DNA of 64,000 nucleotides from Bacillus sp. REN16. Its GTDB lineage: Bacteria; Bacillota; Bacilli; Bacillales; Bacillaceae_L. The stretch's first letter is position 1, and each line of letters starts with the position of its first letter. Below the pieces are notes generated by a model that was given only the letters and a program-made list of their open reading frames with translations, did no database searches and had not been told where the DNA came from. Shown piece after piece: positions 31 through 46,574 of the stretch. The DNA lies in assembly GCF_020731355.1 (NCBI RefSeq), contig NZ_JAJFZK010000005.1:1-64000 (forward strand), read 5' to 3'. The position numbers were made by a program, and so were the translations under genes.

Positions 31-65
31 AAGGGGACGGCTCCGCTGTTCGCCTATTTTTTTCC
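31..65 (+). repeat. REP-like element, copy 1
   Basis: A copy of the interspersed element of this window: GGGGACGG, a short spacer, a complementary C-rich arm and then TATTTTTTT. This copy differs slightly (CTCCGCTGTTCGCC), so its stem is weaker. It lies upstream of the PfpI gene, and the gene it would follow is outside the window. Confidence 0.75.
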
Positions 66-168
66 ATTTTATAGATGGTAGTATTGGGAGGGGGATGTCC
101 CGGTTTGTTTAAGATTTCTTTAGGAAATGTTACTATTAAGAAAACTATTTTTGAAAGGATGGTATGTA

Positions 169-693
169 ATGCGATTAAAGGGAAAAAAGATTATTGGGCT
201 TATTCATCACGATTTTGAAGACTTAGAACTATGGTACCCAGTTTTGAGGCTTAGGGAGGAAGGTGCTGTTGTTGATCTGGTAGGTGAAGAAGCGAATCAG
301 AAATATAATGGGAAATACGGGGTCCCGGCTATTTCCGAATATGCTTATGGCGATATTAGGGCAGAAGAATATGATGCCATTTTAGTGCCAGGAGGATGGG
401 CACCAGATAAAATTCGTAGATTTCCAGAAGTGTTATCTATGCTTCAAGAAATGAATGATGCCAAAAAGCCAATTGGTCAGATTTGCCATGCAGGCTGGGT
501 ATTGATTTCAGCAAAGATTTTGGAGGGGAAAAAGGTTACTAGTACTCCGGGGATTAAGGATGACATGGAAAATGCAGGTGCCGTCTGGTATAACGAACCT
601 GTTGTAACCGATGGACATCTTGTTTCAAGCAGACGTCCACCAGACCTACCAGATTATATGAGGGAATTTATTCGTGTTTTAGAACAAAGATAA
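169..693 (+). CDS. PfpI/DJ-1 family cysteine amidase or protease-like protein
   Basis: Class I glutamine amidotransferase-like protein of the DJ-1/PfpI superfamily, about 174 residues, the usual length for the single-domain PfpI group. The nucleophile-elbow motif QICHAGW carries the expected Cys followed by His, and an early acidic residue lies in DFEDLELWYP. Members act as deglycases, chaperones or peptidases, so the exact activity is open. I place the start at the ATG preceded by GAAAGGATGG; an in-frame upstream ATG at 127 would add 14 residues but has no good ribosome binding site. No signal peptide is visible, so it should be cytoplasmic. The gene is monocistronic and is followed at once by a REP-like hairpin with a T-run. 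Confidence 0.87.
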   Translation: MRLKGKKIIGLIHHDFEDLELWYPVLRLREEGAVVDLVGEEANQKYNGKYGVPAISEYAYGDIRAEEYDAILVPGGWAPDKIRRFPEVLSMLQEMNDAKKPIGQICHAGWVLISAKILEGKKVTSTPGIKDDMENAGAVWYNEPVVTDGHLVSSRRPPDLPDYMREFIRVLEQR

Positions 694-696
694 GCA

Positions 697-755
697 TGGG
701 GAACAGGGGAACAGGGGAACACGGGGACGGTTCCGCCGTTCCCCTATTTTTTTCC
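697..755 (+). repeat. REP-like element behind the PfpI gene
   Basis: Consensus copy: GGGGACGG and CCGTTCCCC form a GC-rich stem with one bulged base, followed by TATTTTTTTCC. It is preceded by three short GGGGAACA-type repeats and starts 4 bases after the PfpI stop. The stem plus T-run in the sense direction would work as an intrinsic terminator. Confidence 0.85.
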
Positions 756-855
756 ATCAGAAAGAAAATTAATCTTCAATTTCCTGAAAAGTTTCGTTAC
801 ACATCATTGTAACGAGAACTTTATTGAATATTGGTTGTGGGTGTAAATGAAACCT

Positions 856-1740
856 CTATTTCCATCTTGTAACGATAATCCCATTTACGTTATTCCCAGA
901 AATCTCATATTGGGAAAAGATTGGTTCTACCATTTCCAGTGTTTCCGCAACAGGGTGGTAGGAGATGAAGTATTCTATTTCTTCAATAGTTGTTTTTAAG
1001 GTCTTTTCTTGTTTCAGATACTCGATGTATTCCTCCAACACGAGGTCCATTTCCTTCATAAGCACACTATGGGGCAAACCCACATATCGAAAGTGCCAAG
1101 GTTCATATTCAATCCCTGTAATATCTGTTTTGTCTTTTGGATACCGCAGGATAAATCCGTATTTCCAAGCATTTTCAGCCATCCATTTCCCTTCGGGTGC
1201 ATTTTCCATTTTCATCAAAGTCGAACCAACATCAAGTGATAATCCTAGATTGTGTTCACTATACCCAGGTGGTAAGGCGTAGGCAGCTCCCATTTCTTTA
1301 TAGAGCTTTGCTTGTTCTTCAAAGTCTCGAAACCCACTATTCACAGAAAAGTGAACGATCCCATCCTTATTTGCTGACTCCATCATTTTTGAAAATGCAA
1401 GGCCAGCCTCATTTGATAAAGTGATAGAATCGATGCTTGCTCCGAATTGTTTCCCAATTTCCTCAATAGAAGATAATGGAACGATATCTGATTTAATACT
1501 ATTTCTTTTAATAGGAAAAGTACTGTTGACTAGTATCAAGTCCCCCTGAAAAATCTGGTCATTATCGATTTCCATGGTTTTGATTTTGTTTACCGGAGGC
1601 TCCCTTTTTGCCATGTCAGATACAACTTTTACTTGAGAAAGTGTATCTTCATTTTTCAGTAAATACGGACTATACACAAAAGCAACACCAATCGTGACAA
1701 TTGCGACTGCTATAAATATCCAGCTTTTCTTCCACTGCAA
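856..1740 (-). CDS. VanY-like D-alanyl-D-alanine carboxypeptidase (M15B)
   Basis: Predicted membrane-anchored zinc DD-carboxypeptidase that trims the terminal D-Ala of peptidoglycan stem peptides. The N-terminus is a single hydrophobic segment (WIFIAVAIVTIGVAFVY) acting as a signal anchor, with the catalytic domain outside. M15 motifs are intact: SGFRDFEEQ with the conserved Arg, SEHNLGLSLDVG giving the first His and Asp zinc ligands, and EPWHFRYVG with the second His ligand. The last 70 residues extend past the catalytic core and are charged and helical. The TTG start at 1740 is favoured because AAGGTGA lies just upstream; a GTG at 1749 overlaps that site and would add three residues. It stands alone on the minus strand. 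Confidence 0.9.
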   Translation of the reverse strand: MQWKKSWIFIAVAIVTIGVAFVYSPYLLKNEDTLSQVKVVSDMAKREPPVNKIKTMEIDNDQIFQGDLILVNSTFPIKRNSIKSDIVPLSSIEEIGKQFGASIDSITLSNEAGLAFSKMMESANKDGIVHFSVNSGFRDFEEQAKLYKEMGAAYALPPGYSEHNLGLSLDVGSTLMKMENAPEGKWMAENAWKYGFILRYPKDKTDITGIEYEPWHFRYVGLPHSVLMKEMDLVLEEYIEYLKQEKTLKTTIEEIEYFISYHPVAETLEMVEPIFSQYEISGNNVNGIIVTRWK

Positions 1741-1964
1741 TTTTTTCACCTTCCCAAGATAGCCGATTGAACGCTCTATTCCATCTCTTTAAATTATGAT
1801 GCCATAGTGCTTATTAGGCAAAACATATGACGGTTTTAGCCGTGACGAATCATGCTTAGTGACAGTAATGAAGTTATTGTATAATAAATATCATGATGGT
1901 CATTAGTAATCATATTAGTAGATTTTATGATTTTAAATTTTAAGTTACGGGGTGAATCATTTAA

Positions 1965-2594
1965 ATGAGGTGGAAATACTCGCAAACAATTATGCTTTCC
2001 TTTTCAATTGCTATTGTTGGAATATATATAATCCCTCCAATATTAATAATAGGAATAATAGAACCAGATAGTTATACTTGGTTAATTTTTTATTATTTGC
2101 TTGCAATCCTATTGACTTTTCTTTTTTTTATCGAATTAACACCTTGGCAAATAAATAAACATTATCAAATTGCTCAGAGCCAAAAGCATCACTTATATCC
2201 TATTAAATACGAACCAACTGAACCCAATGGTAAAATCAGTAAGTATTTCTATAAATATCATGAACTCATTAATTTTGAACAAGCAAAAACAAATGTAATT
2301 AACAAAAGTGTATATGAAATGGGGAAGTTTGGGTATATTCACCTGCTGCTTATAGTTAGCAAATTAATTATTTATTCAATTTTTATTTGGCTTTTTGTGG
2401 TTAACTTTGAGTTGACTCTACTATCCATTATAACGATGTTGGGTGTGGCCATTCTTGAAATATTTACTACCATAATAGCTTTTCTTCAGTTTTGGAGAAA
2501 TATATATTCAAGTGGTAAAGATAGTGTAATACTTAATCAACGGATTGAAAAGATCGAAAAAGCACTATTTGATAATGATACAAATAATGAATAA
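1965..2594 (+). CDS. integral membrane protein of unknown function
   Basis: Unrecognised 209-residue protein. Hydrophobic segments lie near residues 8-30, 36-58 and 110-170 (probably two or more helices), with a polar loop in the middle (about 60-105) and a short charged C-terminal tail. It is notably rich in Ile, Leu, Tyr and Phe and more AT-rich than its neighbours, which may indicate recent acquisition. The ATG follows GGGGTGA at a 9-base spacing. It ends 40 bases before the MORN-repeat gene on the same strand, so the two may be co-transcribed. No catalytic motif was seen. Confidence 0.65.
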   Translation: MRWKYSQTIMLSFSIAIVGIYIIPPILIIGIIEPDSYTWLIFYYLLAILLTFLFFIELTPWQINKHYQIAQSQKHHLYPIKYEPTEPNGKISKYFYKYHELINFEQAKTNVINKSVYEMGKFGYIHLLLIVSKLIIYSIFIWLFVVNFELTLLSIITMLGVAILEIFTTIIAFLQFWRNIYSSGKDSVILNQRIEKIEKALFDNDTNNE

Positions 2595-2634
2595 ATAAGA
2601 TAAGTAAACTAGTAATGTGGACTATGGAGGATTT

Positions 2635-3525
2635 ATGCAAACGAAGTATATTTTAATACAGAATCAAATGGTTAATGCTGTGTATGTACAAGGGGATTAT
2701 AACAAAACAACTGATAAGTGGAATGGTGTTATAAAAGTTTTTCAGGCGTCGTTTGACAAAAAATATGACGATATTTTTCTAGGTGAATTTGAGGGGGATT
2801 TTACTGGATTAAGTCTTTCTGGAGAGGGCGTATTTCGGGGGCGTTTTCAGGATTACATAAAAATGATGACGGAGACGGAAGACAATTATTCATATAACGG
2901 AGAGTTCTTTTATAATTTTGTTCATAAGTATAAAGGTTCTTTTTATCATGCCGTACCAGATGGATTAGGGAGACTCTATTCAGTACCCCATCAAAATAGA
3001 TTTGATTATGTTCATGACAAGGAAAAGATTGAAGCACTAATATTCAAAGGTGAATTTAAAGAAGGATATATTCAAGGGAAAGGAATCCAGTATTCCTTGG
3101 ATGGGAAGAAGTATTATGAAGGTGATTGGTTTACCTTACACGAAAATGAAAGTGCGGATCCCGCATCCTCATATAAAACGAATAAATTATTCCTAAATAA
3201 TTATAAGATTAATGACCATATGAGCATGAAATTCCACGGAACAGGTAAATTCTATTTTGAAAATAAACTTCTATATTCCGGAGAGTGGTATTATGGTAGA
3301 TTCCATGGGACGGGGACCTTGTATAACCTGAAGAATGGTACTCCGTATTATACCGGTACGTGGCGATATGGCTCTCCACATGGTATAGGGATTGAATATC
3401 GACCAAACGGCATGATTTTATATAAAGGCTACTGGATAGATGGGATGAAACATGGATGGGGTACTCTATATGATGCTGAGGGTGAAGTTTTATTTTTCGG
3501 CAAAATGGAGAATAGTCAAAGGTAA
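2635..3525 (+). CDS. MORN-repeat protein
   Basis: About 296 residues, mostly MORN-type beta-hairpin repeats. Recognisable units include YNGEFFYN, FKGEFKEGYIQGKG, YEGDWF, YSGEWYYGRFHGTG, YTGTWRYGSPHGIG and YKGYWIDGMKHGWG, about seven in all and densest in the C-terminal third. MORN repeats usually mediate protein or lipid contacts, and no enzyme domain is attached. The start is taken at the ATG behind GGAGG (spacing 4); an in-frame ATG at 2617 has no ribosome binding site. It has no signal peptide. It lies 40 bases behind a membrane protein, which could be its partner, and a REP-like element begins right after its stop. Confidence 0.8.
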   Translation: MQTKYILIQNQMVNAVYVQGDYNKTTDKWNGVIKVFQASFDKKYDDIFLGEFEGDFTGLSLSGEGVFRGRFQDYIKMMTETEDNYSYNGEFFYNFVHKYKGSFYHAVPDGLGRLYSVPHQNRFDYVHDKEKIEALIFKGEFKEGYIQGKGIQYSLDGKKYYEGDWFTLHENESADPASSYKTNKLFLNNYKINDHMSMKFHGTGKFYFENKLLYSGEWYYGRFHGTGTLYNLKNGTPYYTGTWRYGSPHGIGIEYRPNGMILYKGYWIDGMKHGWGTLYDAEGEVLFFGKMENSQR

Positions 3526-3526
3526 A

Positions 3527-3562
3527 CATGGGGACGGTTCCGCCGTTCTCCTATTTTTTTCC
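3527..3562 (+). repeat. REP-like element behind the MORN gene
   Basis: Near-consensus copy (CATGGGGACGGTTCCGCCG, then TTCTCCTATTTTTTTCC) beginning 2 bases after the MORN stop codon, in the same sense. The hairpin plus T-run could terminate transcription. Confidence 0.83.
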
Positions 3563-3735
3563 ACCATGGATATTATTACAGTGATACCTTGGGATATCGC
3601 TTGAGATTTCTGCACATGTCTTTCGAAAAAACGTAAAAAATAACGTGAAAACCACCCGACGCCATCAAAAGCCAAAGTATGATTCTAATGATAGGAACTA
3701 TATATTGATAACCACTACCCTGACGGTAGAGGTTC

Positions 3736-3767
3736 AAGAGAAGTGAGTTAGCGCACTTCTCTTTTTA
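3736..3767 (+). terminator. rho-independent terminator without an obvious gene
   Basis: AAGAGAAGTG and CACTTCTCTT form a perfect 10-bp stem around an 8-base loop, followed by TTTATTT. No open reading frame of note lies between the MORN gene and this hairpin. The 170 bases before it may hold a small RNA or a decayed gene. A CTACC/GGTAG mini-hairpin sits just upstream. Confidence 0.6.
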
Positions 3768-3773
3768 TTTAAA

Positions 3774-3832
3774 TATGGGGGCGGTCCAATTGTTTTCCTG
3801 ATTTTTTCTATAAGATGGGGACAGTGCCGCCT
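3774..3832 (+). repeat. two degenerate REP-like copies
   Basis: A decayed copy at 3774-3809 (GGGGGCGGTCCAATTGTTTTCC and a T-rich tail) and a truncated one at 3815-3832 (GATGGGGACAGTGCCGCC). The rest of 3833-3965 holds no gene, only the leader of the enolase-family gene. Confidence 0.5.
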
Positions 3833-3894
3833 CAATGATTGTTGATGATTGGTGCAGGAATGCTATTGATGTTGATAGAGAATATTCTGGTTAT

Positions 3895-3907
3895 TAATAC
3901 GTATAAA
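3895..3907 (+). promoter_or_regulatory. ATACGTAT-type dyad upstream of the enolase-family gene
   Basis: TAATACGTATAAA lies about 60 bases before the start codon. Its ATACGTAT core matches the sites in front of the aldehyde dehydrogenase (47641) and the aldolase operon (56562). It could be a GntR/HutC-type operator, or a chance match to a short palindrome. Confidence 0.25.
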
Positions 3908-3965
3908 TAAAAAATTAGTAAATAAGAATGGTAACAGTGATGTTGAGTTAAAGGGAGGAATCGTA

Positions 3966-5156
3966 ATGAGAGTTAGTTCTATCGAAATTATTCCAGTGAA
4001 TATACCTTTAAAGGCTCCTATACGGTGGCCATGGGGAATCCGTACAGGGATTACTAGAAATATTGTGAAGGTGCATACGGATAATGGCTTAGTTGGTTAT
4101 GGTGAAACGATGGGGGGAACACAAATTGAAAATTTGATGAAGGGAATGGTTGACTCTGTCATTGGAAGTAATCCATTTGATATCGAACTTATTCTTTCAA
4201 AGTTTCAATTGACTTCTTATTTTTCAGGATATGCAGGCTTGGCAGCAACTGCGGGCATCGAAACAGCCTTATGGGATGTAATGGCTAAGTCTGTTGAAAA
4301 GCCATTGTACGAACTTTTGGGAGGATTGTACCGAAGTAAAGTTCCATTTTCTGCGTATGTGTTTTATCGATATCCCGGGGAGGATGAAGGTGGAGAAACA
4401 ACACCTGATGATATTGTAGATTATTGCAGAAAGATAGTAAGTGAAAATGGTTTTTCAAATATAAAATTAAAAGGCGGGGTTTTTGAACCTAACCACGATA
4501 TTGATACGATTGCTGCTATTAGGAAGGAATTTGGTAGTGACATGGGTCTGCGAATTGATCCAAATGCTGTATGGTCGCCAACAAAGGCATTAGAAGTATC
4601 TAGAAAACTATTAGAATATAATTTGGAGTACTTAGAGGATCCTACTCCAAACTTAGAGGGGATGGCCCGGATTAGAAGGGATGTACCGATTCCTTTGGCT
4701 ACGAATATGTGTGTGGTGGATTTTGACCAAATTGCTCCAGCCTTCCGTTTAGGTTCGGTTGATGTAATTTTAGGTGATACCCATAAGTGGGGAGGTATTC
4801 TTGCGACGAAAAAATTAGCAGCAGTTTGTGAAACACTTCAGTTTGGATTTTCCTTACATAGCGGGTGTGAGCTTGGCATATCTACTCTTGCATATGCACA
4901 TGTGGCTGCTTCAACTCCTGTTCTATCCTATGCTGCTGATAGTCATTACACACATTTAACAGATGATATTTTAAAGGGCGGATTACTAAAGTTTAAAGAT
5001 GGTATGCTCGAGGTGCCAGATAAACCGGGACTTGGTGCAGAGCTAGATGAAGATAAGCTTGAACTTTATGCTGAACGTTATAAGCAGCAAGGGGTCCTCC
5101 CGGGTACAGGAGACCAATTTAATCCGAATTGGATACCCAAAAAAGTTATGTTTTAA
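3966..5156 (+). CDS. enolase-superfamily dehydratase, glucarate dehydratase-like
   Basis: 396-residue member of the mandelate racemase/enolase superfamily. Capping domain is about residues 1-125 and the barrel follows. Catalytic features resemble the glucarate dehydratase subgroup: KLKGG with the KxK base, metal ligands in RIDPNAVW (Asp), YLEDP (Glu) and PLATNMC (Asn), the Asp of GDTHKW and the His of SLHSGCE forming the presumed His-Asp dyad. It is shorter than classical GudD (about 450), so the substrate may differ. It would abstract a proton next to a carboxylate and lose water or racemise. A strong ribosome binding site, GGGAGGA, precedes the ATG. A terminator separates it from the downstream ABC operon, yet it is the natural first gene of the cluster. 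Confidence 0.85.
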   Translation: MRVSSIEIIPVNIPLKAPIRWPWGIRTGITRNIVKVHTDNGLVGYGETMGGTQIENLMKGMVDSVIGSNPFDIELILSKFQLTSYFSGYAGLAATAGIETALWDVMAKSVEKPLYELLGGLYRSKVPFSAYVFYRYPGEDEGGETTPDDIVDYCRKIVSENGFSNIKLKGGVFEPNHDIDTIAAIRKEFGSDMGLRIDPNAVWSPTKALEVSRKLLEYNLEYLEDPTPNLEGMARIRRDVPIPLATNMCVVDFDQIAPAFRLGSVDVILGDTHKWGGILATKKLAAVCETLQFGFSLHSGCELGISTLAYAHVAASTPVLSYAADSHYTHLTDDILKGGLLKFKDGMLEVPDKPGLGAELDEDKLELYAERYKQQGVLPGTGDQFNPNWIPKKVMF

Positions 5157-5181
5157 TAATTTTTATACAGAAACAACAACA

Positions 5182-5284: not shown

Positions 5285-5299
5285 GAATTTATACAATAT

Positions 5300-16890: not shown

Positions 16891-16904
16891 AAACAGTTAG
16901 TGAA

Positions 16905-16937
16905 ACATAGGGGAACGGAAGAACCGTCCCCTTGTTC
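16905..16937 (-). repeat. REP-like element behind the NlpC/P60 gene
   Basis: On the minus strand it reads GAACAAGGGGACGGTTC, then TTCCGTTCCCCTATG. Its first two bases fall in the TGA stop codon of the NlpC/P60 gene, so it again follows a gene in the sense direction. It has no long T-run. Confidence 0.75.
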
Positions 16938-18339: not shown

Positions 18340-18352
18340 TACTTTACCTCCA

Positions 18353-18390
18353 AACATAGGGACGGTTCCGCCGTTTCCCTATTTTTTTAC
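18353..18390 (+). repeat. REP-like element in the NlpC/P60 gene leader
   Basis: Near-consensus copy (AGGGACGGTTCCGCCGTTTC, then CCTATTTTTTTAC) in plus orientation, facing away from the minus-strand gene. It overlaps the spurious ATG at 18357. A cre-like sequence (TGTAAACGTTAAAC, 12 of 14 matches) follows near 18395. Confidence 0.8.
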
Positions 18391-18490
18391 ATCTAATGTA
18401 AACGTTAAACGAGAATTAACAGTTTTTCAATAAATAGATATCAACAGAAATCTACAAAACGAGTGAAAGTGGTGCTGAACTTTGGGGAAA

Positions 18491-18526
18491 CATAGGGACG
18501 GTTCAACTGTTCCCCTATTTTTTACC
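18491..18526 (+). repeat. REP-like element, left border of the RAYT unit
   Basis: CATAGGGACGGTTCAACTG, then TTCCCCTATTTTTTACC in plus orientation. With the minus-oriented copies at 19966-20031 it brackets the RAYT gene and its 600-base leader. Confidence 0.8.
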
Positions 18527-19155
18527 ATTTCTGCTCAATTGTTGTGAAATAAAAATTTTAAAAAAAGTTTTTCAAGAATAGAAGGACTATTGAACTAGAC
18601 ATAGAATAATTATATTGAACTTGTAATCTCGCTATTTGAAATCCCCAATCCTTCTTCTTTTAATTACCAAGCCACACTAAAAACAATCTATTTCCAACAC
18701 TTTTTAACTTTCTATGATTATTTTTAATATTGGAATAAAGTGACTTGGGGGAATTGTGCTCAGGTTCCAAGTGCGTACAGCATATTCAAGACGTATTCCA
18801 GCATTTGTCCGTATGCATGGACAAGCTAAAAGTCCTTTAAAATAGCGGTAGCTGGAGGCAAAGCACACAGTTCCTTATCCTTCATCCCTTAGCTTCGTCG
18901 TAAGGTCGAATCCCCGGCTTAGCAGATTTCTTGGCTAACAAAACCATTATTGCACTTGTACTCTCAAACAAATTCCAACCTATTAAAATAGGATATTTGG
19001 CCCTATCTATGCTCTATTTGCTATTTCTCTTTTTCTCCAATCGCTAAAACTCAACGGATAAGTACCATGATATTACGGATGAAGGAAGCAAGTACGTTAA
19101 GAAGGAAAAAAGCACAAGAAAAGTTTAAACAACAGAATATCTGGAGGTGGACAAA

Positions 19156-19932
19156 TTGCCTCGAAAGGCAAGGTTAATAAGTAAAACAGGAGTCTATCAT
19201 TTGATGTGGAGGGGAGCGAATCGGCAGGAAATTTTCCATGATGAAGAGGACTGGAGGACCTTCTTGGAGATTCTGAAAAAATATAAAATGATGCTAAATT
19301 TGAGATTCTATGCATGGTGTCTAATGAGTAATCATGTTCATTTATTAATAAAGGAGGGGGATGAAAGTATTTCTAGTACGATGAAACGGATTGGTGTGAG
19401 TTATGCCGGATATTACAATTGGAAATATAAGACGACTGGACATCTTTTTCAGGATCGGTTCAAAAGCGAGAATGTTGAAGATCGGGGCTATTTGCGAACA
19501 GTTGTCAGGTATATACATCAAAACCCTGTAAAGGCAGGGATGGAAACGAGACCGGATGGATGGAAGTGGAGCAGCTGTCGCGGATACTATGGTCACAGCT
19601 TTTATCCACAGGGGTTATTGGATCGGTATTTTCTATTAAATATGTTTTCTCCTGACGTCAAAGAAGCTCAGGCATTATTTAAAGAATTTAATGAAAGACA
19701 AAACGATGATCAATGTCTGGATGAGATAGTGAATGATAGGGGATTAACAGATCATGAAGCGAGGCTGCAAATTAAGGAATTGCTGGGGGCCATGGAAATT
19801 CCGCATGTAAAGAGCTTGCCCAAGGAACTAAGAAAAGAAGTGCTACGAGAGGTAAAAGGAATTAGGGGAATTTCGATGCGCCAGGCTGCGAGGATATTGG
19901 GGATATCTTTGAATCTTGTGTTTAGGGCGTGA
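19156..19932 (+). CDS. REP-associated tyrosine transposase (RAYT, Y1_Tnp/IS200-like)
   Basis: 258-residue HUH single-strand transposase. The HUH-type motif is SNHVHLL, the catalytic tyrosine region is RYIHQNPVKAG, and the N-terminus PRKARLISKTGVYHLMWRG is typical for RAYTs. The C-terminus carries a helix-turn-helix-like segment (MRQAARILGISLNLVF). The TTG start has GGAGGTGG 8 bases upstream; the GTG at 19147 overlaps that site. RAYTs are single-copy domesticated relatives of IS200/IS605 transposases thought to mobilise REP hairpins. Here the surrounding REP-like repeats fit that role. Confidence 0.88.
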   Translation: MPRKARLISKTGVYHLMWRGANRQEIFHDEEDWRTFLEILKKYKMMLNLRFYAWCLMSNHVHLLIKEGDESISSTMKRIGVSYAGYYNWKYKTTGHLFQDRFKSENVEDRGYLRTVVRYIHQNPVKAGMETRPDGWKWSSCRGYYGHSFYPQGLLDRYFLLNMFSPDVKEAQALFKEFNERQNDDQCLDEIVNDRGLTDHEARLQIKELLGAMEIPHVKSLPKELRKEVLREVKGIRGISMRQAARILGISLNLVFRA

Positions 19933-19965
19933 ACAAAAGCGAATAAGGGGGGGGCTTCCAGATTA

Positions 19966-20031
19966 TAGGAGAACGGGAGAACCGTCCCTTTGTTTCCCGA
20001 TTGTCCCCTTCAAGAACCGTCCCCTTGTTTT
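19966..20031 (-). repeat. two REP-like copies, right border of the RAYT unit
   Basis: Two copies in minus orientation: AGAACGGGAGAACCGTCCC with TTTGTTTCCC (19966-19999), and CAAGAACCGTCCCCTTGTTT (about 20012-20031). They begin about 35 bases after the RAYT stop and mirror the plus-oriented copy at 18491. Confidence 0.8.
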
Positions 20032-28239: not shown

Positions 28240-28260
28240 ACATGGAATAAACATGGGTAA

Positions 28261-28297
28261 ACATGGGGACGGTTCCGCCGTTCCCCTATTTTTTTCC
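28261..28297 (+). repeat. REP-like element behind mmsB, left border of the deleted RAYT unit
   Basis: Consensus copy (GGGGACGGTTCCGCCGTTCC, then CCTATTTTTTTCC) in plus orientation. It may serve both as terminator of the sugar transporter operon and as the left border of the RAYT derivative. Confidence 0.85.
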
Positions 28298-28811
28298 ATT
28301 GTTGCTTTATTTAATGAACTAGTAACCTCGCTGTTTTGAATTCCCTTTTCCATCTTCTTTTTTATCACCAATCCAAATACCGAAGCACACTAAAAATAAT
28401 TTATTTCCAACTCTTTTTATGACAATAAAAAATTCTAGTATGGTGTAAAGGGACTTGAGTGAATTGTATTAGGTTTAAGTTTAGAATTTATCGAGGTTTA
28501 GTATATTCATAGAAACCTCCGCAATGTCATTTGCATGTACAATCTAAGCTAGCCTTTGAAATTGCAGTAGTTGGAGATACAATCCACAGATATTTATCTA
28601 TATTCCCTCATCGCAGTGTTGAATCCCTACCAAAGTGGATTTCTTGATTACCCCAACCATTAATACACTTTTACTCCCAAACACATTCAATCCTATCGAA
28701 ATCGAGTATCTGGGCCCTATTTACGCTTAAATTGCTCTTTCTCTTTCTCTTTCTTCAATTTCTAAAACTCTACGGATAAGTACCATGATATTACAGATGG
28801 AGGAAGTAAGT

Positions 28812-28892
28812 GAGATAGTGAATGATAGGGGATTAACAGATGAAGAAGCGAGGCTGCGGGGGATATCTTTGAATCTTGTATTTAAGGCTTGA
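28812..28892 (+). pseudogene. RAYT remnant (two internal deletions)
   Basis: Encodes EIVNDRGLTDEEARLR joined to GISLNLVFKA and a stop, matching two separated C-terminal stretches of the RAYT at 19156-19932 (EIVNDRGLTDHEARLQ and GISLNLVFRA). Both deletions left the frame intact, and an ATG at 28797 opens a 31-codon frame through it. The HUH and tyrosine motifs are lost, so no transposase activity remains. Confidence 0.7.
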
Positions 28893-29000
28893 TCAATGGA
28901 GGATCAAGGGGTACTATTCCATTTTATAGGGAAACGGGAGAACCGTCCCTCTGTTTTCTCTCTGTTTTCCGAAAATATTATCAATTTTTAATTTTCACTA

Positions 29001-32634: not shown

Positions 32635-34152
32635 ATGTGGAATGTAATACTTTCCCTTTTACCCATAGTTGTCATCATTATTTTATTATTTGTATTTAAA
32701 ATGTCATCGGCAAAGGCTGGCTTTCTTTCCCTTATTGTCACAATGTTGATTGCTTTATTTTATAATACATCTACACATGGCCCAACAGAGATTGCATTCG
32801 CCTCATTTCATGGTGTTCTTATCGCTATGGTGGTTATTTATGTACTTCTCTTTGGCATTTTTCTTTTCCATCTCATGGATCAATCGGGCCTCATAAGTAC
32901 ACTTTCTTCATTTGTACAAAACACTACAAAAGATCCAGCCCGCCAAGTTATTATTCTTGGAGTAGCTTTTTCGCCGTTAATTGAATCTGTAAGTGGGTTT
33001 GGTATCGGGGTGGTTGTAATAACTCCTATACTCATAGCACTTGGATTTAATCGTTACCAAGCAGCGTTGGTTTCACTGATTAGTTTAAGTGCCGTCCCCT
33101 GGGGAGCGCTTGCAACAGGTATAGTAATTGGCTCAAGACTAACGGATGTTTCTGTACAAACGATTGGGGTTTGGAGTGCGTATCTATGTATTCCAACTTT
33201 TATCTATTTCGCGATGATATCTATATATATTTTAAAAGGGATAAGAGGAATAATTGAAAAATGGCTGGAGTTACTACTTGTATCAGGGGCATTAGCGGTA
33301 GGAGTTTGGTTCTCTAACCAATGGGTAAGCGTTGAATTATCTGGTGTTCTAGGTTCGTTAATAGCTTTATGTATAGAGGGGTTATTCCTTTTTTATTTTC
33401 ACCATAGATCTAAGTCAGGTGTTAAAACAAAAAAAGAAAAGGTTAGCAGTTTATTAGAGTGGATTTCACAATATGCTTCTATTATTAAAGTATTAATGCC
33501 TTATTTATTTTTAACGTGTTTATTAATTATATCTAGGGTTGTGCCCGCCGTGGAATCTGCCTTAACATCATTTGCAGTGTTGAAGTGGGAAGAATACTCC
33601 TTTTCATTGCCAATTCTATATTCACCGGGGTTTTTCTTACTTATCACGTGTATATTTACAATACTATTATTCAAATTGAAGAAAAAGGTTATCTTATCCG
33701 CGATGAAGTCAACCATCAAACAATTGAACCCAATTGCTGTTACTACCATTTCGTTTATCGTATTAGCAGAGGTAATGTCCAAAGTGGGCATGACTACCAC
33801 ATTGGCTGTGGCGGCCGGTGATTCATTAGGAAGCGGGTTTTTTTGGATTTCCCCTCTTATCGGAGGATTTAGTGGTCTGATTACGGGTAGCAACGCAGCA
33901 TCCAATGCTATGCTTATTAAATTACAAATTCAGGCAGCTAATCAGTTTAATTTTTCAACAGAATTGATAGCAGGTATTCAAAATACGAGTGCCTCTCATA
34001 TGACCATGGCCTCCCCCTCACGTGTTTTACTTGCTGCTACCGTAAGTGGGGAAGTCAAACGTGAAAGTGAATTATTCCGTACAATATTCCTAATCGCAGC
34101 TGGTAGCCTATTATTAATGATGATCACTGCCGTATTTTTGAGGGGAACATAG
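32635..34152 (+). CDS. second LctP-family permease
   Basis: 505 residues, shorter than the usual 540-600 and clearly diverged from the upstream copy. Family features: SPLIESVSGFGIGVVVITPILIALG and SGLITGSNAASNAM, about 13 membrane helices. The start at 32635 has AAGGAAGTG upstream; the ATG at 32605 lacks one. The last codons run into a REP-like element, which supplies the TAG stop, so the C-terminus may have been altered by the insertion. Substrate unknown; probably a hydroxy acid related to that of its neighbour. Confidence 0.87.
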   Translation: MWNVILSLLPIVVIIILLFVFKMSSAKAGFLSLIVTMLIALFYNTSTHGPTEIAFASFHGVLIAMVVIYVLLFGIFLFHLMDQSGLISTLSSFVQNTTKDPARQVIILGVAFSPLIESVSGFGIGVVVITPILIALGFNRYQAALVSLISLSAVPWGALATGIVIGSRLTDVSVQTIGVWSAYLCIPTFIYFAMISIYILKGIRGIIEKWLELLLVSGALAVGVWFSNQWVSVELSGVLGSLIALCIEGLFLFYFHHRSKSGVKTKKEKVSSLLEWISQYASIIKVLMPYLFLTCLLIISRVVPAVESALTSFAVLKWEEYSFSLPILYSPGFFLLITCIFTILLFKLKKKVILSAMKSTIKQLNPIAVTTISFIVLAEVMSKVGMTTTLAVAAGDSLGSGFFWISPLIGGFSGLITGSNAASNAMLIKLQIQAANQFNFSTELIAGIQNTSASHMTMASPSRVLLAATVSGEVKRESELFRTIFLIAAGSLLLMMITAVFLRGT

Positions 34153-34183
34153 GGACGGTTCCTGCGTTCCCCTATTTTTTTCC
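34147..34183 (+). repeat. REP-like element overlapping the permease stop codon
   Basis: AACATAGGGACGGTTCCTGC, then GTTCCCCTATTTTTTTCC. The TAG inside its first bases is the stop codon of the second permease gene. Sense orientation with T-run, as expected for an exapted terminator. Confidence 0.85.
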
Positions 34184-34351
34184 AACAGACTTACATTTAC
34201 GCTGAAGTTTATTTAACAAAAGAATGTTTTACTACTCCACCGGTTATTAGTGTTCTAGTTACTGGCCAGTATATATTCCAATTGAATAATTCGCGCGAAG
34301 AGGTTTCATCCTAAGATTAGGTAACTTACTCTTTAGGAGGTAAGGCGAGGG

Positions 34352-35648: not shown

Positions 35649-35818
35649 GTTATACTCCTTACTGGTTGATTGATCTCGGGGTGACTCCCGTCAGGATAAT
35701 GTATTACAGTGTAAATTGATAATATTTTTACACGCACCATAGTGAAGTATAGCTCCACTTTAATTGTAACCCCTATTTATTATCAAATTATATCAAAATT
35801 GTACCTTATTTCTGTCAA

Positions 35819-35896
35819 ACATGGCGACAATGCTGGAGTTCCCCTATTTTTTTCATTCCTAGAACATGAGGTAGTTCCGTTGTTCCGCTTATTTTT
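35819..35896 (+). repeat. two degenerate REP-like copies
   Basis: Decayed copies at 35819-35855 (CATGGCGACAATGCTGGAG and CCCCTATTTTTTTCATTCC) and 35861-35896 (GTAGTTCCGTTGTTCCGC and a T-rich tail). The stems are broken but the 3' tails are recognisable. Confidence 0.5.
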
Positions 35897-36065: not shown

Positions 36066-36120
36066 ACAAGGGTGGCCCGCAAATATAGTTCTATCCGGTC
36101 CTTCGTATGGAAGAAATTAG

Positions 36121-36158
36121 GAAAACAGAAGAACCGTCCCTTTGTTTCCCTGTTTCCC
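36121..36158 (-). repeat. REP-like element upstream of the regulator gene
   Basis: AACAGAAGAACCGTCCCTTTG followed by TTTCCCTGTTTCCCCC, minus orientation. Part of its second arm is degenerate. Confidence 0.65.
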
Positions 36159-40929: not shown

Positions 40930-41871
40930 TTGTATTTTTACATATTAAAACGTATTTTTTCCCTAGTTCCGGTTTTATTCGTAGTCTCGATTGTTGCGTT
41001 TTTACTAATCTATTTAACACCAGGTGATCCGGTCTCGGTGATGCTTGGGCAAGAAGCGACAGCAGAGCAAATCGAAAAAGTACGTGAACAAATGGGGCTT
41101 AACGAACCATTATATCTCCAATATTTAAATTGGTTGTTTAACGTTTTTCAAGGGGATTTAGGAGATTCCTATTTTATGCATATGCCAGTAACCACAGCTA
41201 TTCTTGATCATTTAGGCCCAACACTTTCGATTGCCATTTTTGCAGAAATCATTGCGATCTTAATTGCGGTACCTATTGGTATCCTCGCCGCACGACATCG
41301 TGGTTCCTTTATTGATCAGTTTGTGATGGGTTTTACATTAACGGGAATGGCGATTCCGAGCTTCCTCTTCGGTTTATTATTGATGCTTGTCTTAGGTGTG
41401 AAGCTAGGTTGGTTACCGGTAGCGGGATATCAACCCATTAGTAGTGGATTTTTTGTTTTCCTAAAATATCTCTTAATGCCATCCCTGGCACTTGGAGTTA
41501 TCCAATCGGCCTTAATTGCACGAATGACTAGATCATCCATGCTCGAGGTACTCAATGCAGAATTTATTAAAACAGCTCGGTCAAAAGGTTTAAAAGAGCG
41601 TTCTATTATATATGTGCATGCGTTCCGTAATGCGCTACTCCCGATCATAACGGTTATTGGACAGACATTCGGTCTTCTTATCGCAGGTGCAGTTGTAATC
41701 GAAACGATTTTTAATATACCTGGAATTGGTCAATTAGTGATAAATTCAATCCAAAGCAGGGATTATGCCGTGATTCAAGGGATTATTTTAATGGTGGCAT
41801 TTTTCTATGTCTTAATCAATTTGATCATCGATTTATTATATATGTTAATTGACCCGAGAGTAGGGTATTAG
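40930..41871 (+). CDS. peptide-type ABC transporter permease (DppB-like)
   Basis: 313-residue permease with six predicted helices. The coupling loop EVLNAEFIKTARSKGLKE and the segment YLTPGDPVSVMLG are typical of DppB/OppB. Start is TTG behind AAGGGGGAAG. It forms the channel with the next gene product. Confidence 0.92.
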   Translation: MYFYILKRIFSLVPVLFVVSIVAFLLIYLTPGDPVSVMLGQEATAEQIEKVREQMGLNEPLYLQYLNWLFNVFQGDLGDSYFMHMPVTTAILDHLGPTLSIAIFAEIIAILIAVPIGILAARHRGSFIDQFVMGFTLTGMAIPSFLFGLLLMLVLGVKLGWLPVAGYQPISSGFFVFLKYLLMPSLALGVIQSALIARMTRSSMLEVLNAEFIKTARSKGLKERSIIYVHAFRNALLPIITVIGQTFGLLIAGAVVIETIFNIPGIGQLVINSIQSRDYAVIQGIILMVAFFYVLINLIIDLLYMLIDPRVGY

Positions 41872-41892
41872 GGATGTCATGGAGGTGAGGTT

Positions 41893-42789
41893 TTGAATAT
41901 ACCCGTGGTGAATGTGAACCAGCAAAAAAGAGTCAAATATGACCTGAAGAAACAGGAGAGAGCTCTATTAGTTAGACGAATTTTAGCAAATAAATTGATG
42001 GTTACCGGTGGTGTAATTGTCATTTTCTTACTACTGCTAACAATCTTTGGTCCTAAATTAACGCCTTATGACCCCTATGAAATGGTCGTTAAGGAACGGT
42101 TACAATCCCCGACTGCTAGTCACTTACTTGGAACAGATAACTTTGGTCGGGATTTATTAACCCGCATTATCTACGGCGCGAAAGTATCAATGTGGGTAGG
42201 ATTTGCTTCTGCCTTTTTGTCATCAATTATTGGCTTAGCGATTGGGTTAGCAGCCAGCTATTATCGCTATTTAGATAACATCTTTATGCGTATCTGTGAT
42301 GGCTTACTCGCGTTTCCAGCTATTTTATTTGCGATTGCATTGATGGCTGTTCTGGGCGCAAAGACTGAAAATGTCATCTTGGCGTTAACAATTGTTTTCT
42401 CGCCAGAAATAGCGAGAATTGTTCGATCAAGAGCACTAGTGGTTCGGGAGGAAACCTATATTGAGGCGATTCGAAGTCAAGGAGCAAGCGCAATGCGGAT
42501 CATTTGGCGTCATATTGCCCCCAATACGATTTCACCTCTGTTGGTTAAGGCGACCTTCGTCTTTTCTGAGGCAGTTATTGTTGAAGCAACATTGAGCTTT
42601 TTAGGTGCTGGGGTACCTGCACCAGACCCAAGTTGGGGAAATATATTATCCGATGGTAAAGCTGTTATTTACACAGCCTGGTGGATGACCGTATTTCCGG
42701 GGGCTTTTATTATTCTGTCGGTTCTTGGGCTTAATTTATTCGGTGATGGCTTACGTGATTTAATAGATCCACGATCAAGTACAAAATAG
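41893..42789 (+). CDS. peptide-type ABC transporter permease (DppC-like)
   Basis: 298 residues with the N-terminal OppC-type extension, a first helix, the LLGTDNFGRDLLTR segment and the coupling loop with EETYIEAIRSQGASAM. Start is TTG behind GGAGGTGAGG. The operon is interrupted after this gene by an intergenic repeat, with the ATPase genes beyond. Confidence 0.92.
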   Translation: MNIPVVNVNQQKRVKYDLKKQERALLVRRILANKLMVTGGVIVIFLLLLTIFGPKLTPYDPYEMVVKERLQSPTASHLLGTDNFGRDLLTRIIYGAKVSMWVGFASAFLSSIIGLAIGLAASYYRYLDNIFMRICDGLLAFPAILFAIALMAVLGAKTENVILALTIVFSPEIARIVRSRALVVREETYIEAIRSQGASAMRIIWRHIAPNTISPLLVKATFVFSEAVIVEATLSFLGAGVPAPDPSWGNILSDGKAVIYTAWWMTVFPGAFIILSVLGLNLFGDGLRDLIDPRSSTK

Positions 42790-42845
42790 ACTTTAAGTTT
42801 GGTAGTGTCGATAGCTATTAAATGTATGATTTTTTAGAAGTTTTC

Positions 42846-43031
42846 AATGTCTAGCTTTAGGCGCCATAGGCTCGAGGTCATAAGGCAATCGCTTCGAAGG
42901 GGAAAATGCACCTTCTGATGTGCTCGTCTTATGCTTGGACTTGCACAGGTAGTGCTGACATCGACGTTCGCCATTGGACGTGGCGGCAGTTAGTCGATGT
43001 CGCTATCAGGGCGCCTTGGGCTTTTCTTATG
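42846..43031 (+). repeat. GC-rich interspersed intergenic repeat inside the peptide operon
   Basis: Begins with AATGTCTAGCTTTAGGCGCC and ends with AGGGCGCCTTGGGCTTTTC, so the ends are partly inverted (AGGCGCC/GGCGCCT). Inside is a perfect 9-bp stem GACATCGAC/GTCGATGTC enclosing a further GC-rich hairpin. It resembles repeats I recall from bacilli with CTCGAGGTCATAAGG and TGCTCGTCTTATGCTTG. It is much richer in GC than its surroundings and carries no gene, although a frame runs through it into the ATPase gene. Confidence 0.65.
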
Positions 43032-43052
43032 TATGAAATGGAGGAAAAAAGG

Positions 43053-44057
43053 ATGAATCAGCCTCTTCTTGAAATAAATAATTTGAAAACACATTTTAAA
43101 ACAGAGCGGGGACGAGTAACGGCGGTTGATGGAATTTCTTTCTCCGTTGAAAAGGGAGAAATTCTTGGTGTAGTTGGCGAGTCCGGTTGTGGGAAGAGTG
43201 TAACAGCACAATCTATATTAAGACTTTTTGATGAAAAATACACGGCTTCATATGAAGGTGAAATAAATCTCCAAGGTGAAGATTTATTGCGTCTTTCAAA
43301 AGCAAAAATGGAAAAAATTCGTGGTAATGAGGTTTCAATGATTTTCCAAGACCCGTTAAGCTCATTGAACCCTGTATTTACAATTGGATTTCAATTAACG
43401 GAAACGATATTACTCCACCAAAATCGTACCAAAAAAGAGGCCAACCAAATGGCTATCGATTTATTGCGCATGACGGGAATACCTTCACCTGAAAAACGTG
43501 TCCATGAGTATCCGCATCAGCTGTCGGGAGGTATGAGACAAAGGGTAATGATTGCAATGGCCCTTGCTTGTAAACCAAAGCTGCTTATAGCCGATGAGCC
43601 TACAACCGCATTAGATGTTACAATCCAAGCTCAGATACTAGACCTCATTCTCGATTTGAATAAGGAGCTAGGGATGGCTGTGGTGTTTATCACCCATGAT
43701 TTAGGTGTTGTGGCTGAAGTTTGTACGCGTGTGATCGTCATGTATCTGGGTCAGGTTGTCGAAGAAGCTGATGTATATGACTTATTTACGTCACCCCTAC
43801 ATCCGTATACAAAAGGTTTGATGAAATCCATTCCACAAATGGAAGGGGATCGTTCAAAGAAGTTAAATGTAATTGGAGGAACTGTTCCAGCGTTAGATGC
43901 CGTTCCAAAAGGATGTCGATTCGCCTCACGTTGTCAGTACGCCGATGAACAATGTAAGGAAAATGCTCCTGATCTCCTCTTGTATGAAGGTAACCATAAG
44001 GTTAGATGTTGGCATTATGAGAGTATTGCCAGAATGGAGGAGGTACATCATGCCTAA
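43053..44057 (+). CDS. peptide-type ABC transporter ATP-binding protein (DppD/OppD-like)
   Basis: 334 residues. Walker A GESGCGKS, signature [12 protein letters not shown], Walker [13 protein letters not shown], and the C-terminal cysteine cluster [15 protein letters not shown]. The ATG at 43053 is preceded by GGAGGAAAAAAGG; an open frame extends upstream to 42906, but that stretch is the intergenic repeat and the family starts here. It overlaps the next gene by 8 bases. Confidence 0.92.
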
Positions 44058-45030
44058 CGAAAAAGCTGAACCCATTTTAGAGGTACAGGGCTTAAAAAAA
44101 TATTTTTCCGTGAATGGGATAAGAAGGAAGTCACGAAATCAACAAGTTAAGGCTGTCGATGATGTCTCTTTTTCGCTTCATAAAGGAGAAACATTAGGCT
44201 TGGTTGGAGAATCCGGTTGCGGAAAAAGCACAACTGGACGAGCCATCTTACGCTTAATTGAACCGTCTGAAGGCAAGGTTTTGTATCAGAATGAGGACAT
44301 CCTTCAAAAATCAAAACGAGATTTTCGTCACGTACAAAAGGATATGCAAATGGTGTTCCAGGATCCTTTTTCATCTTTGAATCCGCGAATTCGAATCGGG
44401 GAAAGTATTAAAGAATCTTTAACGATTCATTCAATTGGAAACCGCAATGAAAGAGAAGAAATCGTGATGGATATGTTAGCTAAGGTTGGGCTGCGTCCAG
44501 ATCATTATTACCGATTTCCTCATGAGTTCTCTGGTGGACAAAGACAACGGATTGGATTAGCAAGGGCATTGGTTGCAAACCCGCAAATTCTTATTTTAGA
44601 TGAACCGGTGTCTGGGCTTGATGTATCCATACAATCTCAAATACTTAATCTTTTGCAAGATTTACAGGCTGAATTTCAGCTGACATCTTTGTTTATTTCA
44701 CATGATATGAGTGTTGTTCGCCATATATCTGATCGAGTGGGTGTCATGTATTTAGGTAAACTTGTTGAAGAAGCGGATACGGATACACTATTTTCAAGCC
44801 CTCTCCATCCTTATACGCAAGCCCTGCTTTCGGCAGTACCAATTGCAAAAATAGGTAGAAAGAGAGAAAGAATTGTTCTTAAAGGTGAAATTCCATCCCC
44901 ATTAAACCCGCCTTCTGGTTGCATTTTTCATACAAGATGCCCATATGCCATGGATATATGTAAGGAAAAAGCACCTGAAAAAGTGCACATCAAAGAGCGG
45001 CATACAGTTGCTTGTCATCTGTATGAATAG
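44050..45030 (+). CDS. peptide-type ABC transporter ATP-binding protein (DppF/OppF-like)
   Basis: 326 residues. Walker A GESGCGKS, signature FSGGQRQRIGLA, Walker B ILILDEPVSGLD, and the C-terminal cluster GCIFHTRCPYAMDIC. The ATG lies in the end of the preceding gene behind GGAGGAGG, so translation is coupled. With the previous four genes this completes a second full peptide-type importer in the window. Confidence 0.92.
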   Translation: MPNEKAEPILEVQGLKKYFSVNGIRRKSRNQQVKAVDDVSFSLHKGETLGLVGESGCGKSTTGRAILRLIEPSEGKVLYQNEDILQKSKRDFRHVQKDMQMVFQDPFSSLNPRIRIGESIKESLTIHSIGNRNEREEIVMDMLAKVGLRPDHYYRFPHEFSGGQRQRIGLARALVANPQILILDEPVSGLDVSIQSQILNLLQDLQAEFQLTSLFISHDMSVVRHISDRVGVMYLGKLVEEADTDTLFSSPLHPYTQALLSAVPIAKIGRKRERIVLKGEIPSPLNPPSGCIFHTRCPYAMDICKEKAPEKVHIKERHTVACHLYE

Positions 45031-45057
45031 ATTGTCTAACGAAAGGGAGATGAAAGT

Positions 45058-46476
45058 ATGGAGATAAATTGGAGAAAAGAAGCGGAGCGTAATCAGGAAG
45101 ACTACCTTGCAAATACAATCGAATTTTTAAAAATTCCAAGTGTACTTGATGAGGCAACAATCGGGGAAAATGCGCCATTTGGTCGACCAATTGCCGATGC
45201 GTTAGAGTATATCCTCGATTTCTGTTCCGAACTAGGATTTACGGTTCATAATGAAGAAGGGTACGCAGGACATGCAGATTATGGGGACGGTGAGGAATTC
45301 ATCGGTATTCTTTGTCACGTTGATGTAGTTCCTGCTGGGAATGACTGGACTTCTGATCCATTTCAACCAGAAGTAAGAAATGGCAGATTATATGCTCGCG
45401 GATCAAACGATGACAAAGGTCCCACAATGGCAGCTGTGTATGCCGTAAAGATCGTCAAGGAGTTAGGTCTGCCCTTGAAGAAAAAGATTAGACTGATTTT
45501 TGGTACAGATGAAGAAAATGGGGAGTGGCTGGGGATTGAGAAATACTTCGACAAGCATCCGGTCCCACAAATGGGATTTGCGCCTGACGCGTATTTTCCG
45601 ATTGTATCCACTGAAAAAGGCATTCTTTCTTGCCATTTTAACCAAGCCTATCAACCGTCAGAACAGTCACCAAATGGCTGGCAGCTCCAAACGTTTATTT
45701 CTGGTGATCGGGTAAATATGGTACCTGATCACGTTAAGGTGACCCTCGTTGGAGAACAAGATTCTGAGAATCTGAAGGTGAACTACAACTCTTACTTAGA
45801 GGAGAATGGAATTAAGGGAGCGTTTGAATGTGATAATGATCTAATCACACTGACTCTAGAAGGAATCTCTCACCATGCGATGGAACCGTATAATGGTCTC
45901 AATGCAGGTTTAGTCATGGCAAGCTTCCTTAAAAAACTCGAGCTAGATCGTAGGGGTGAACAATTTATATCCCTCATAGGCAATCACTTTGTAGATGGTT
46001 TCTTTGGTGATAAGTTGGGAATTGCGATTGAAGATGAGATTAGTGGAAAACTAACCGTTAATCCTGGAACATTCATGTATTCCAGTGAAGATGCGGCCCG
46101 AATTGGACTTAGTATTCGTTACCCAGTAACGACTGACTTTCATCATATGATGACTTGTCTTCAAGACGTTGCAGAGAGTTTTGCCTACAAAATCTCATCG
46201 GATTTTGTCAATAAACCCCCACATCATATTGATAAAGACCATGACCTCATCAAAACACTTCAAAAGGTGTATGAGGAACAAACAGGGGAACATGCAGAGC
46301 TTTTGGCCATTAGTGGTGGCACGTATGGCAGAGCAATGAAAAGCGGGCTGGCGTTTGGCCCATACTTCCCAGGAGAAGAAGACACAGCCCACCAAAAAGA
46401 CGAATACATCGATTTAAAAAACATGAACAAAGCCATGGCCATCTATGCCCAGGCTGTTTATGAATTGGCGAGATAA
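45058..46476 (+). CDS. pepV: dipeptidase PepV (M20)
   Basis: 472 residues, the standard PepV length. Di-zinc M20 dipeptidase acting on unblocked dipeptides, including beta-alanyl dipeptides (carnosine) in known relatives. Zinc and catalytic residues: GILCHVDVVPAG (His and Asp), GSNDDKGP (Asp), GTDEENG (Glu pair), AYFPIVSTEKG and the late AHQKDE His. The lid domain lies between about 185 and 355. It is 27 bases behind the second ATPase gene and would cut the imported peptides in the cytoplasm. GAAAGGGAG precedes the ATG. Two REP-like copies begin about 30 bases after the stop. Confidence 0.92.
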   Translation: MEINWRKEAERNQEDYLANTIEFLKIPSVLDEATIGENAPFGRPIADALEYILDFCSELGFTVHNEEGYAGHADYGDGEEFIGILCHVDVVPAGNDWTSDPFQPEVRNGRLYARGSNDDKGPTMAAVYAVKIVKELGLPLKKKIRLIFGTDEENGEWLGIEKYFDKHPVPQMGFAPDAYFPIVSTEKGILSCHFNQAYQPSEQSPNGWQLQTFISGDRVNMVPDHVKVTLVGEQDSENLKVNYNSYLEENGIKGAFECDNDLITLTLEGISHHAMEPYNGLNAGLVMASFLKKLELDRRGEQFISLIGNHFVDGFFGDKLGIAIEDEISGKLTVNPGTFMYSSEDAARIGLSIRYPVTTDFHHMMTCLQDVAESFAYKISSDFVNKPPHHIDKDHDLIKTLQKVYEEQTGEHAELLAISGGTYGRAMKSGLAFGPYFPGEEDTAHQKDEYIDLKNMNKAMAIYAQAVYELAR

Positions 46477-46507
46477 GGAAAACAAGGGGGAAAACAAGGA
46501 AGGGAAA

Positions 46508-46574
46508 CATGGGGACGGTTCTGATGTTCTCCCGAAACAAGGGGACGGTTCTGATGTTCTCCTATTTTTTTCCA
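46508..46574 (+). repeat. two tandem REP-like copies behind pepV
   Basis: GGGGACGGTTCTGATGTTCTC occurs twice, 31 bases apart, and the second copy carries the CCTATTTTTTTCC tail. The stem of this variant is weaker because GTTCTC replaces GTTCCCC. Sense orientation relative to pepV. Confidence 0.78.

Follow-up and report, generated by a model that had tools for sequence, protein, structure and literature searches.

Genes and repeat copies in the window

The window analysed here is the 64,000-nucleotide (nt) stretch at positions 1 to 64,000 of contig NZ_JAJFZK010000005.1 (C45) of Bacillus sp. REN16, whose genome comprises 4.64 Mb in 73 contigs. The window carries 14 copies (at least 20 bits) of a short palindromic repeat and one intact small transposon which spans 18488-19995, and the repeats look like the left (T7-tailed) and right (without T tail) ends of this Y1/HUH transposon. 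Copies of the repeat were found at the stop codons of six genes (PfpI, MORN, NlpC/P60, mmsB, the second lctP and pepV) in the sense direction of the gene and at -8 to +28 nt from the stop, in agreement with the initial annotation. This placement accounted for seven copies at the six loci, while the other seven of the 14 window copies (27, 18352, 18488, 19966, 28927, 35817 and 36118) were located elsewhere. The description of every one of the six as a GC-rich stem followed by TATTTTTTT did not hold, as the NlpC copy ends with TATGTTTCAC and lacks TATTTTTTT and the first pepV copy abuts the second.

Behind PfpI, a T-tailed copy detected with a position weight matrix (PWM) at 717..756 (+) starts 23 nt past the stop and is preceded by partial GGGGAACA units. 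The T-tailed copy at 3524..3563 (+) overlaps the stop of the MORN gene (-2) where the AA of the element completes TAA, and the NlpC/P60 copy at 16899..16937 (copy 16908, -), which has no T tail, overlaps its stop at the same distance (-2) with a T followed by the GA of the element. At mmsB, the left end of an internally deleted transposon copy (28259-28298) begins 19 nt past the stop. The CATAG of the T-tailed copy at 34145..34184 (+) supplies the stop codon of the second lctP (-8), and a tandem pair at 46505..46574 (copies 46505 and 46535, +) lies behind the pepV stop (+28) with a T tail on the second copy only.

Structure of the transposon and its transposase

The intact transposon consists of a T-tailed left end (18488..18527, +), a non-coding leader (18528..19146, +), a gene for a 261-amino-acid Y1/HUH transposase (19147..19932, +; PF01797, E=4.4e-17) which resembles the tyrosine transposases associated with repetitive extragenic palindromes (REPs), known as RAYTs, and an inverted right end with the tail CCTAnnnnnTGGAA (19953..19995, copy 19966, -), beyond which a partial second copy was found at 20012-20030. 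The same whole arrangement occurs again at C45:68.5-70 kb with a transposase of 91% identity and a leader of 80-84% identity where aligned, with an alignment gap at approximately 18674-18815. An internally deleted copy of the transposon at 28259..28956 (+) retains the left end behind mmsB, a leader remnant of 69% identity, fragments of the last part of the transposase and a right end at 28927-28956. The anatomy of the full and deleted copies showed that the plus orientation of the initial annotation corresponds to the left end, to which the T tail belongs; that annotation had mentioned neither the transposase nor the existence of two end types nor the orientation with the replication strand.

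Six Y1_Tnp matches were present in the genome. The transposase scored 76.4 bits (E=2e-21) against NF047646, the NCBIfam model for the REP-associated tyrosine transposase, for which the cut-off is 80, and 22 bits against NF033573 (IS200/IS605), below the cut-off of 55. Its sole credible PDB match was TnpArep 4er8 (E=7e-4). A full-length transposase of at least 76% identity was found in two of nine genus genomes, the present one and G005, and the G005 transposase (76% identical) is flanked by the same left and right layout. Palindromic inverted repeats unrelated to GTAG REPs flank the transposase in the window (left 18488, inverted right 19966) and likewise at C45:68.5-70 kb and in G005. Matches to the repeat model at E≤0.01 numbered 69 in the present genome, 7 in G005 and 0-5 in the remaining seven genus genomes, and five of the seven G005 matches fell within a 24-kb stretch around the transposase gene.

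Repeat family and end classes

The core GGGACGGTTC occurred 71 times in the genome compared to 3 times for the reversed pattern. A sequence-only repeat model built from 25 copies produced 66 genome matches at E<0.001 with 150 of 1460 candidates scored, so that degenerate copies could have been missed; the copy set already included every one of the 25 exact T-tail matches. The surroundings of the matches together with the window were merged into 25 regions of 359,717 bases (359.7 kb), and a PWM rescan of these regions gave 71 hits of at least 10 bits compared to none in the reversed sequence. The element has the foot RAACAn and the consensus motif GGGGACGG, and the left-end consensus is RAACAnRGGGACGGTTCnnnYGTTYnCCTA-T7-CCA. 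The right end forms a comparable hairpin that lacks the T tract and is inverted. No Rfam family covered the element at the gathering threshold, and the exact T-tailed pattern was found in three stretches across a genome-contig database from which the records of the present genome were possibly left out. Among the open-licence papers listed, none dealt with this repeat family or with Litchfieldia REPs. Covariation of an outer stem was considered and rejected: pair 1-25 formed 30 Watson-Crick pairs, where none of 300 shuffles exceeded 29, but column pairs outside the stem had similar z-scores.

The region C45:1-150000 represents 3% of the genome and holds 25 of the 66 model matches (E<0.001), around both full transposase copies. 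This crowding may reflect transposition over short distances or a plastic stretch of the genome.

Copies of at least 20 bits were grouped by their tails into class T (six or more T after CCTA; 30 copies), class R (TGGAA tail; 8 copies), class M (other N5-8 tails before CCA or ACA; 20 copies) and unclassified copies (x; 9 copies). The four PWM hits below 20 bits were left out of the class counts and the nine unclassified copies were left out of the T, M and R counts. The two copies at contig breaks (C45:27 and C13:52946) were included in the orientation counts and excluded from the stop statistics.

Orientation with the replication fork

Repeat clusters oriented with the leading strand made up 27 of 29 in class T, 0 of 6 in class R, 6 of 19 in class M and 4 of 9 among the unclassified copies. 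Away from stops, the ratio of copies with and against the fork was 15:1 for class T and 1:12 for classes M and R together (Fisher p=3e-6), and at stops the corresponding ratios were 11:1 and 5:6. GC skew is a usable proxy for fork direction in the genus because it showed two arcs over 20 sampled points in G005, with the origin at approximately 3.45-3.70 Mb and the terminus at approximately 1.02-1.25 Mb. The orientation of IS200/IS605 elements is described as recapitulating the direction of replication in the part of PMC5371812 consulted, and left ends with the fork and the other classes against it, away from stops, are as insertion of the IS200/IS605 type predicts. On contig C13, where the skew is negative, the T copies lie on the minus strand and several stand beside plus-strand genes, which orientation by gene sense does not predict.

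Clustering at the replication terminus was rejected, as the G005 cluster at 3.15-3.18 Mb is not terminal by GC skew. A Bacillus dif pattern, searched with up to three mismatches, had no match in two genomes.

Enrichment at stop codons

Genes in the 359.7 kb were called with a simple hexamer caller of our own, leaving out calls with a score of 15 or lower or shorter than approximately 57 codons. The stop statistics covered 56 clusters (65 copies), of which a cluster was counted when its 5' edge was at -12 to +50 of a stop in sense, and the null was obtained by placing the clusters 1000 times at random positions and orientations within the same intergenic space. The insertion near stops proposed in the initial annotation was borne out, as 27 of the 56 clusters were within 50 nt of a stop in sense compared to 5.1 expected (maximum 12). 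The other placements were at chance, with 6 clusters at stops in antisense (5.0 expected), 7 at starts in antisense (5.1 expected) and 3 at starts in sense (5.2 expected). The remaining 29 of the 56 clusters were not at stops in sense. The location pattern is real and statistically strong, yet selective.

The orientation with the fork alone was ruled out as the cause of the sense pattern. At the stops of genes transcribed head-on to replication, 8 clusters were in sense and 1 in antisense (18 and 5 at the stops of co-directional genes, counting first cluster members), which indicates that the preference for the sense direction at stops does not depend on the fork.

The distance to the stop was often exact. 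A start at precisely -2 or -1 was found in 7 of the 27 clusters at stops in sense compared to 0.86 expected under a uniform spread, with the register chosen post hoc, and in these copies the RA or G of the element completes TAA, TGA or TAG. In other copies at stops, partial RAACAnGG units fill the stretch between the stop and the full copy. The sharp register at the stop codon suggests that the insertion machinery could prefer stop-codon-like sequence or structures at transcript ends, so that the pattern would be due to targeting and not to survival. An extra RAACAnGG-type unit within 30 nt upstream, which was present in 19 of 67 copies compared to a background of 1.3% (neighbouring full copies contribute to this count), is consistent with such a choice of target. 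However, the base before RAACA, inspected by eye, is often G with no fixed target across copies, the 29 clusters not at stops in sense would have to be accounted for as well, and no single-step empty site was seen; this explanation is considered distinctly unlikely.

Stop codons of homologs and other palindromes at the same gene ends

Comparison with homologs showed that the stop is native, or within one codon of the native one, in the four genes for which homologs could be compared. The mmsB stop is at the same codon in four of four homologs, the PfpI stop is the same as in four of five homologs (the fifth is longer) and the pepV stop is the same in all nine homologs, which are 48-49% identical and include a paralog in the present genome. 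The NlpC stop is within one codon in six of six homologs and exact in three. Homologs of lctP were 26-30% identical, too distant for the native stop to be judged.

At the PfpI stop, a different palindrome, TGGGACAGAGGGACAG(G/A)TCCC... (TGGGACAGAGGGACAGGTCCC-like), begins right at the stop in G001 (L083) and G002 (L082), and a related palindrome, TGGGACAAGGGACCTGTCCC..., lies approximately 15 nt past the stop after a partial unit in G005 (L071). An apparently decayed palindrome is present there in G003 and none in G006. Behind mmsB in G005, GTGGGACAG is followed by a copy of the present repeat family. The PfpI and mmsB comparisons indicate that gene ends collect successive palindrome families. 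The other family at the PfpI stop in G001 and G002 and the related one behind it in G005 would suit a choice of target site, and successive families at gene ends could equally reflect targeting, survival or the insertion of new copies into older ones.

Transcription-unit ends and termination

Of 137 gene ends that were convergent or widely spaced (>150 nt), 23 carried a sense copy, compared to 4 of the 146 tandem junctions no longer than 150 nt (p=6e-5). The depletion at close tandem junctions suggests a polar cost of the hairpin, and it fits termination as well as simple harm to operons. The form of an intrinsic terminator that had been ascribed to the element was retained for the T-tailed class, in which 12 copies at stops fit a GC-rich hairpin with a U tract in sense, and was found not at all or only partly in the other classes. 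A terminator scan listed the T-tailed copies at 28265, 34152 and 46541 among 22 such sites, although shuffles already gave 15.8.

These T-tailed copies with terminator form and the concentration at transcription-unit ends point to terminator exaptation as the possible main cause, with copies being kept at gene ends because the hairpin and U tract end transcripts, as the initial annotation had proposed. All six NlpC homologs carry a GCATCTTC..GAAGATGC-like hairpin and a T run behind the stop, and by eye no such hairpin was seen behind the NlpC stop in the window, where the element stands instead. Selection for termination was nevertheless not demonstrated. Copies of classes M, R and x without a good T tract are also at stops, and the T tail, which is a feature of the left end, is retained in antisense copies and between divergent genes, contexts without termination such as those on C13. 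A hairpin-plus-T scan of our own, restricted to gene ends followed by 120 nt or more of intergenic DNA, found native terminator-like sites at 9 of the 22 ends that carry a sense copy and at 37 of the 82 that do not (Fisher p=0.81), while the same scan called the element itself at 11 of the 22. The copies C45:122088 and C45:147223 are situated 30 nt before the next co-directional gene, and neither hairpin energy nor the PWM score of class T differed significantly between stops and elsewhere. Terminator exaptation as the main cause is considered unlikely. A general replacement of native terminators was not supported by the equal frequencies above, and among the compared genes only NlpC resembles a replacement.

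Stronger hairpins at stops were rejected as a mark of selection. Class T had -10.9 kcal/mol at stops and -9.2 kcal/mol elsewhere (p=0.29), and the comparison over all three classes was not significant either (p=0.18).

An effect on translation or mRNA stability, by which a hairpin past the stop would slow the ribosome or block 3' exonucleases, could account for the 18 of 56 clusters, T-tailed or not, that are in sense and no more than 15 nt from a stop. It has a precedent in the E. coli REPs, which are within 15 nt of stops and for which an effect on translation is proposed in the sections of PMC12306157 consulted. However, the lack of significantly stronger hairpins at stops argues against it, and it neither needs nor explains the orientation with the fork elsewhere. 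It is held to be highly improbable.

Other copies and repeats in the window

The first 67 bases of the window (1-67) are identical to the end of contig C13, which indicates that the assembly breaks inside a repeat copy and that the first 26 bases could derive from one locus or the other. The T-tailed copy of left-end type at this break is at 27..66 (+), and its 5' neighbour is not in the contig. The copies 18352 and 18488 are on the 5' side of the NlpC gene, the former (18352..18391, +) being a T-tailed copy antisense to NlpC at its 5' end, and the copies 19966 and 28927 are inverted. A degenerate T-tailed copy upstream of the NERD gene (35817..35854, +) and a class M copy with an N7CCA tail (36109..36147, copy 36118, -), which is oriented against the fork, both lie between divergent genes.

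Further repeats of other kinds were also present. A sequence of approximately 165 nt at 3612-3776, next to the MORN copy, has further copies in C13, C32, G002 and G004, and those in C13 and G002 are near Y1 transposase genes or remnants. This suggests that another transposon of this kind, in deleted form, may occupy the stretch from 3524 to approximately 3840. At 42942-43009 (-), within 42839-43034, a match to the Rfam Bacillaceae-1 RNA (40.5 bits) belongs to a multicopy repeat of approximately 190 nt, mostly 76-88% identical, which is present in at least eight of nine genus genomes. Downstream of pepV, a perfect hairpin CCGATTAG..CTAATCGG with a T run at 46689-46716 has close relatives after the gene that ends at C45:125422 and, in G003, after PfpI; these are perhaps a dispersed terminator family.

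Relation to known elements

REPs have been described as lying mainly behind open reading frames, with single REPs (uni-REPs) near the 3' end of the upstream frame (Di Nocera et al. 2013, PMC3733652). The part of the same article consulted describes GTAG REPs that supply TAG stops, as well as TIRYTs, relatives of RAYTs flanked by terminal inverted repeats (TIRs), some with a GGGGWSAS motif. Classes without a GTAG foot are described in PMC6006769, as far as that text was available.

The present repeats are a new family of a known kind. They share with the RAYT (TnpA-REP) systems and their REP, bacterial interspersed mosaic element (BIME) and REPIN repeats a related transposase (NF047646 at 76.4 bits, below the cut-off; 4er8 at E=7e-4) and hairpin repeats behind genes, solo or clustered, as in the accounts available from PMC8266576, PMC6006769 and PMC3733652; stop codons are supplied by GTAG REPs there (PMC3733652) and by the element here. 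In contrast, the present hairpin has the foot RAACAn without GTAG or GTGG, the element has two different end types, and two full transposase copies and a deleted one are present, whereas the rule given in the portion of PMC6006769 consulted is a single full-length gene per REP type. The TIRYTs or TIRtrons of PMC3733652, as described in the part consulted, are similar in having a Y1/HUH tyrosine transposase flanked by palindromic TIRs without a GTAG tag, repeat families dispersed in some species and a motif starting with GGGG. They differ in that the present motif GGGGACGG is not strictly GGGGWSAS, having G for A (GGGGWSAS itself is common to some TIRs only), in the T7CCA tract on one end of the present element and in the Bacillaceae-like host, as the main text of PMC3733652 has Bacillus twice (the bcr1 repeat and the references) and Firmicutes never.

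The Y1 transposase, palindromic subterminal ends and orientation following the fork are shared with IS200/IS605 elements, from which the present family differs in the low NF033573 score (22 bits, cut-off 55), the abundance of solo ends and ends that are inverted repeats. Class T resembles an intrinsic terminator in having a GC-rich hairpin followed by a T tract; unlike intrinsic terminators, the hairpin-tail unit is one dispersed sequence, and many copies are antisense or without a usable tail.

Proposed origin of the pattern

Overall, with moderate confidence, the elements are interpreted as the ends, single or in pairs, of a small transposon that moves as single-stranded DNA and encodes a Y1/HUH transposase of the RAYT/TIRYT kind, with survival at stops giving the pattern and termination as a by-product. 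The transposase would recognise the hairpin ends on single-stranded DNA, mostly on the lagging-strand template, and a transposase acting there is expected to orient left ends along the fork and right ends opposite to it. New copies would be most likely to persist where the hairpin is least damaging, in sense at the stop that closes a transcription unit or immediately after it. At such sites the native stop codon would often be completed, or immediately followed, by the first bases of the element, and T-tailed left ends would constitute a ready-made hairpin and U tract. Judging from the sequence, transcripts probably end in T-tailed copies at some loci, which would be a side effect and not the cause of the pattern, and transposition by the encoded transposase through the lagging-strand route is likewise deduced.

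Several points weigh against this interpretation. Fork direction was inferred from the GC skew of stretches of 8-24 kb, and the T copy on contig C1 agrees with the fork only on the wider stretch (skew -0.014 over 8 kb and +0.066 over 18 kb), while two T clusters on contig C19 are oriented against it. The ratio of 5:6 for classes M and R at stops showed that the fork orientation does not govern all copies. Class M was put with the right ends solely by its orientation elsewhere, and the class of the R copy C23:113908 is doubtful because six T precede its GGAA. The gene calls behind the stop statistics come from the simple caller, and no empty site that would fix the insertion boundary was found. 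Finally, most copies are solo ends, for which classic IS200/IS605 transposition gives no direct account.

A bolder possibility, considered very unlikely, is that the transposon family seeks out stops at the ends of transcription units and inserts in such a way that the stop codon is completed by the first bases of the element, so that every new copy would bring a stop-plus-terminator cassette. If true, this would be a safe-site strategy coupling the end of translation, the end of transcription and transposition.

Two easily mixed signals behind genes were separated here, an orientation that follows the fork and an enrichment that is sense-only and often exact to the stop codon. As the element is short, with distinguishable left and right ends and a likely transposase, target choice and survival can be tested separately, and separating them bears on why REPs gather at the 3' ends of genes. 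In this way, a Gram-positive genome could obtain terminators and stop codons from mobile DNA.

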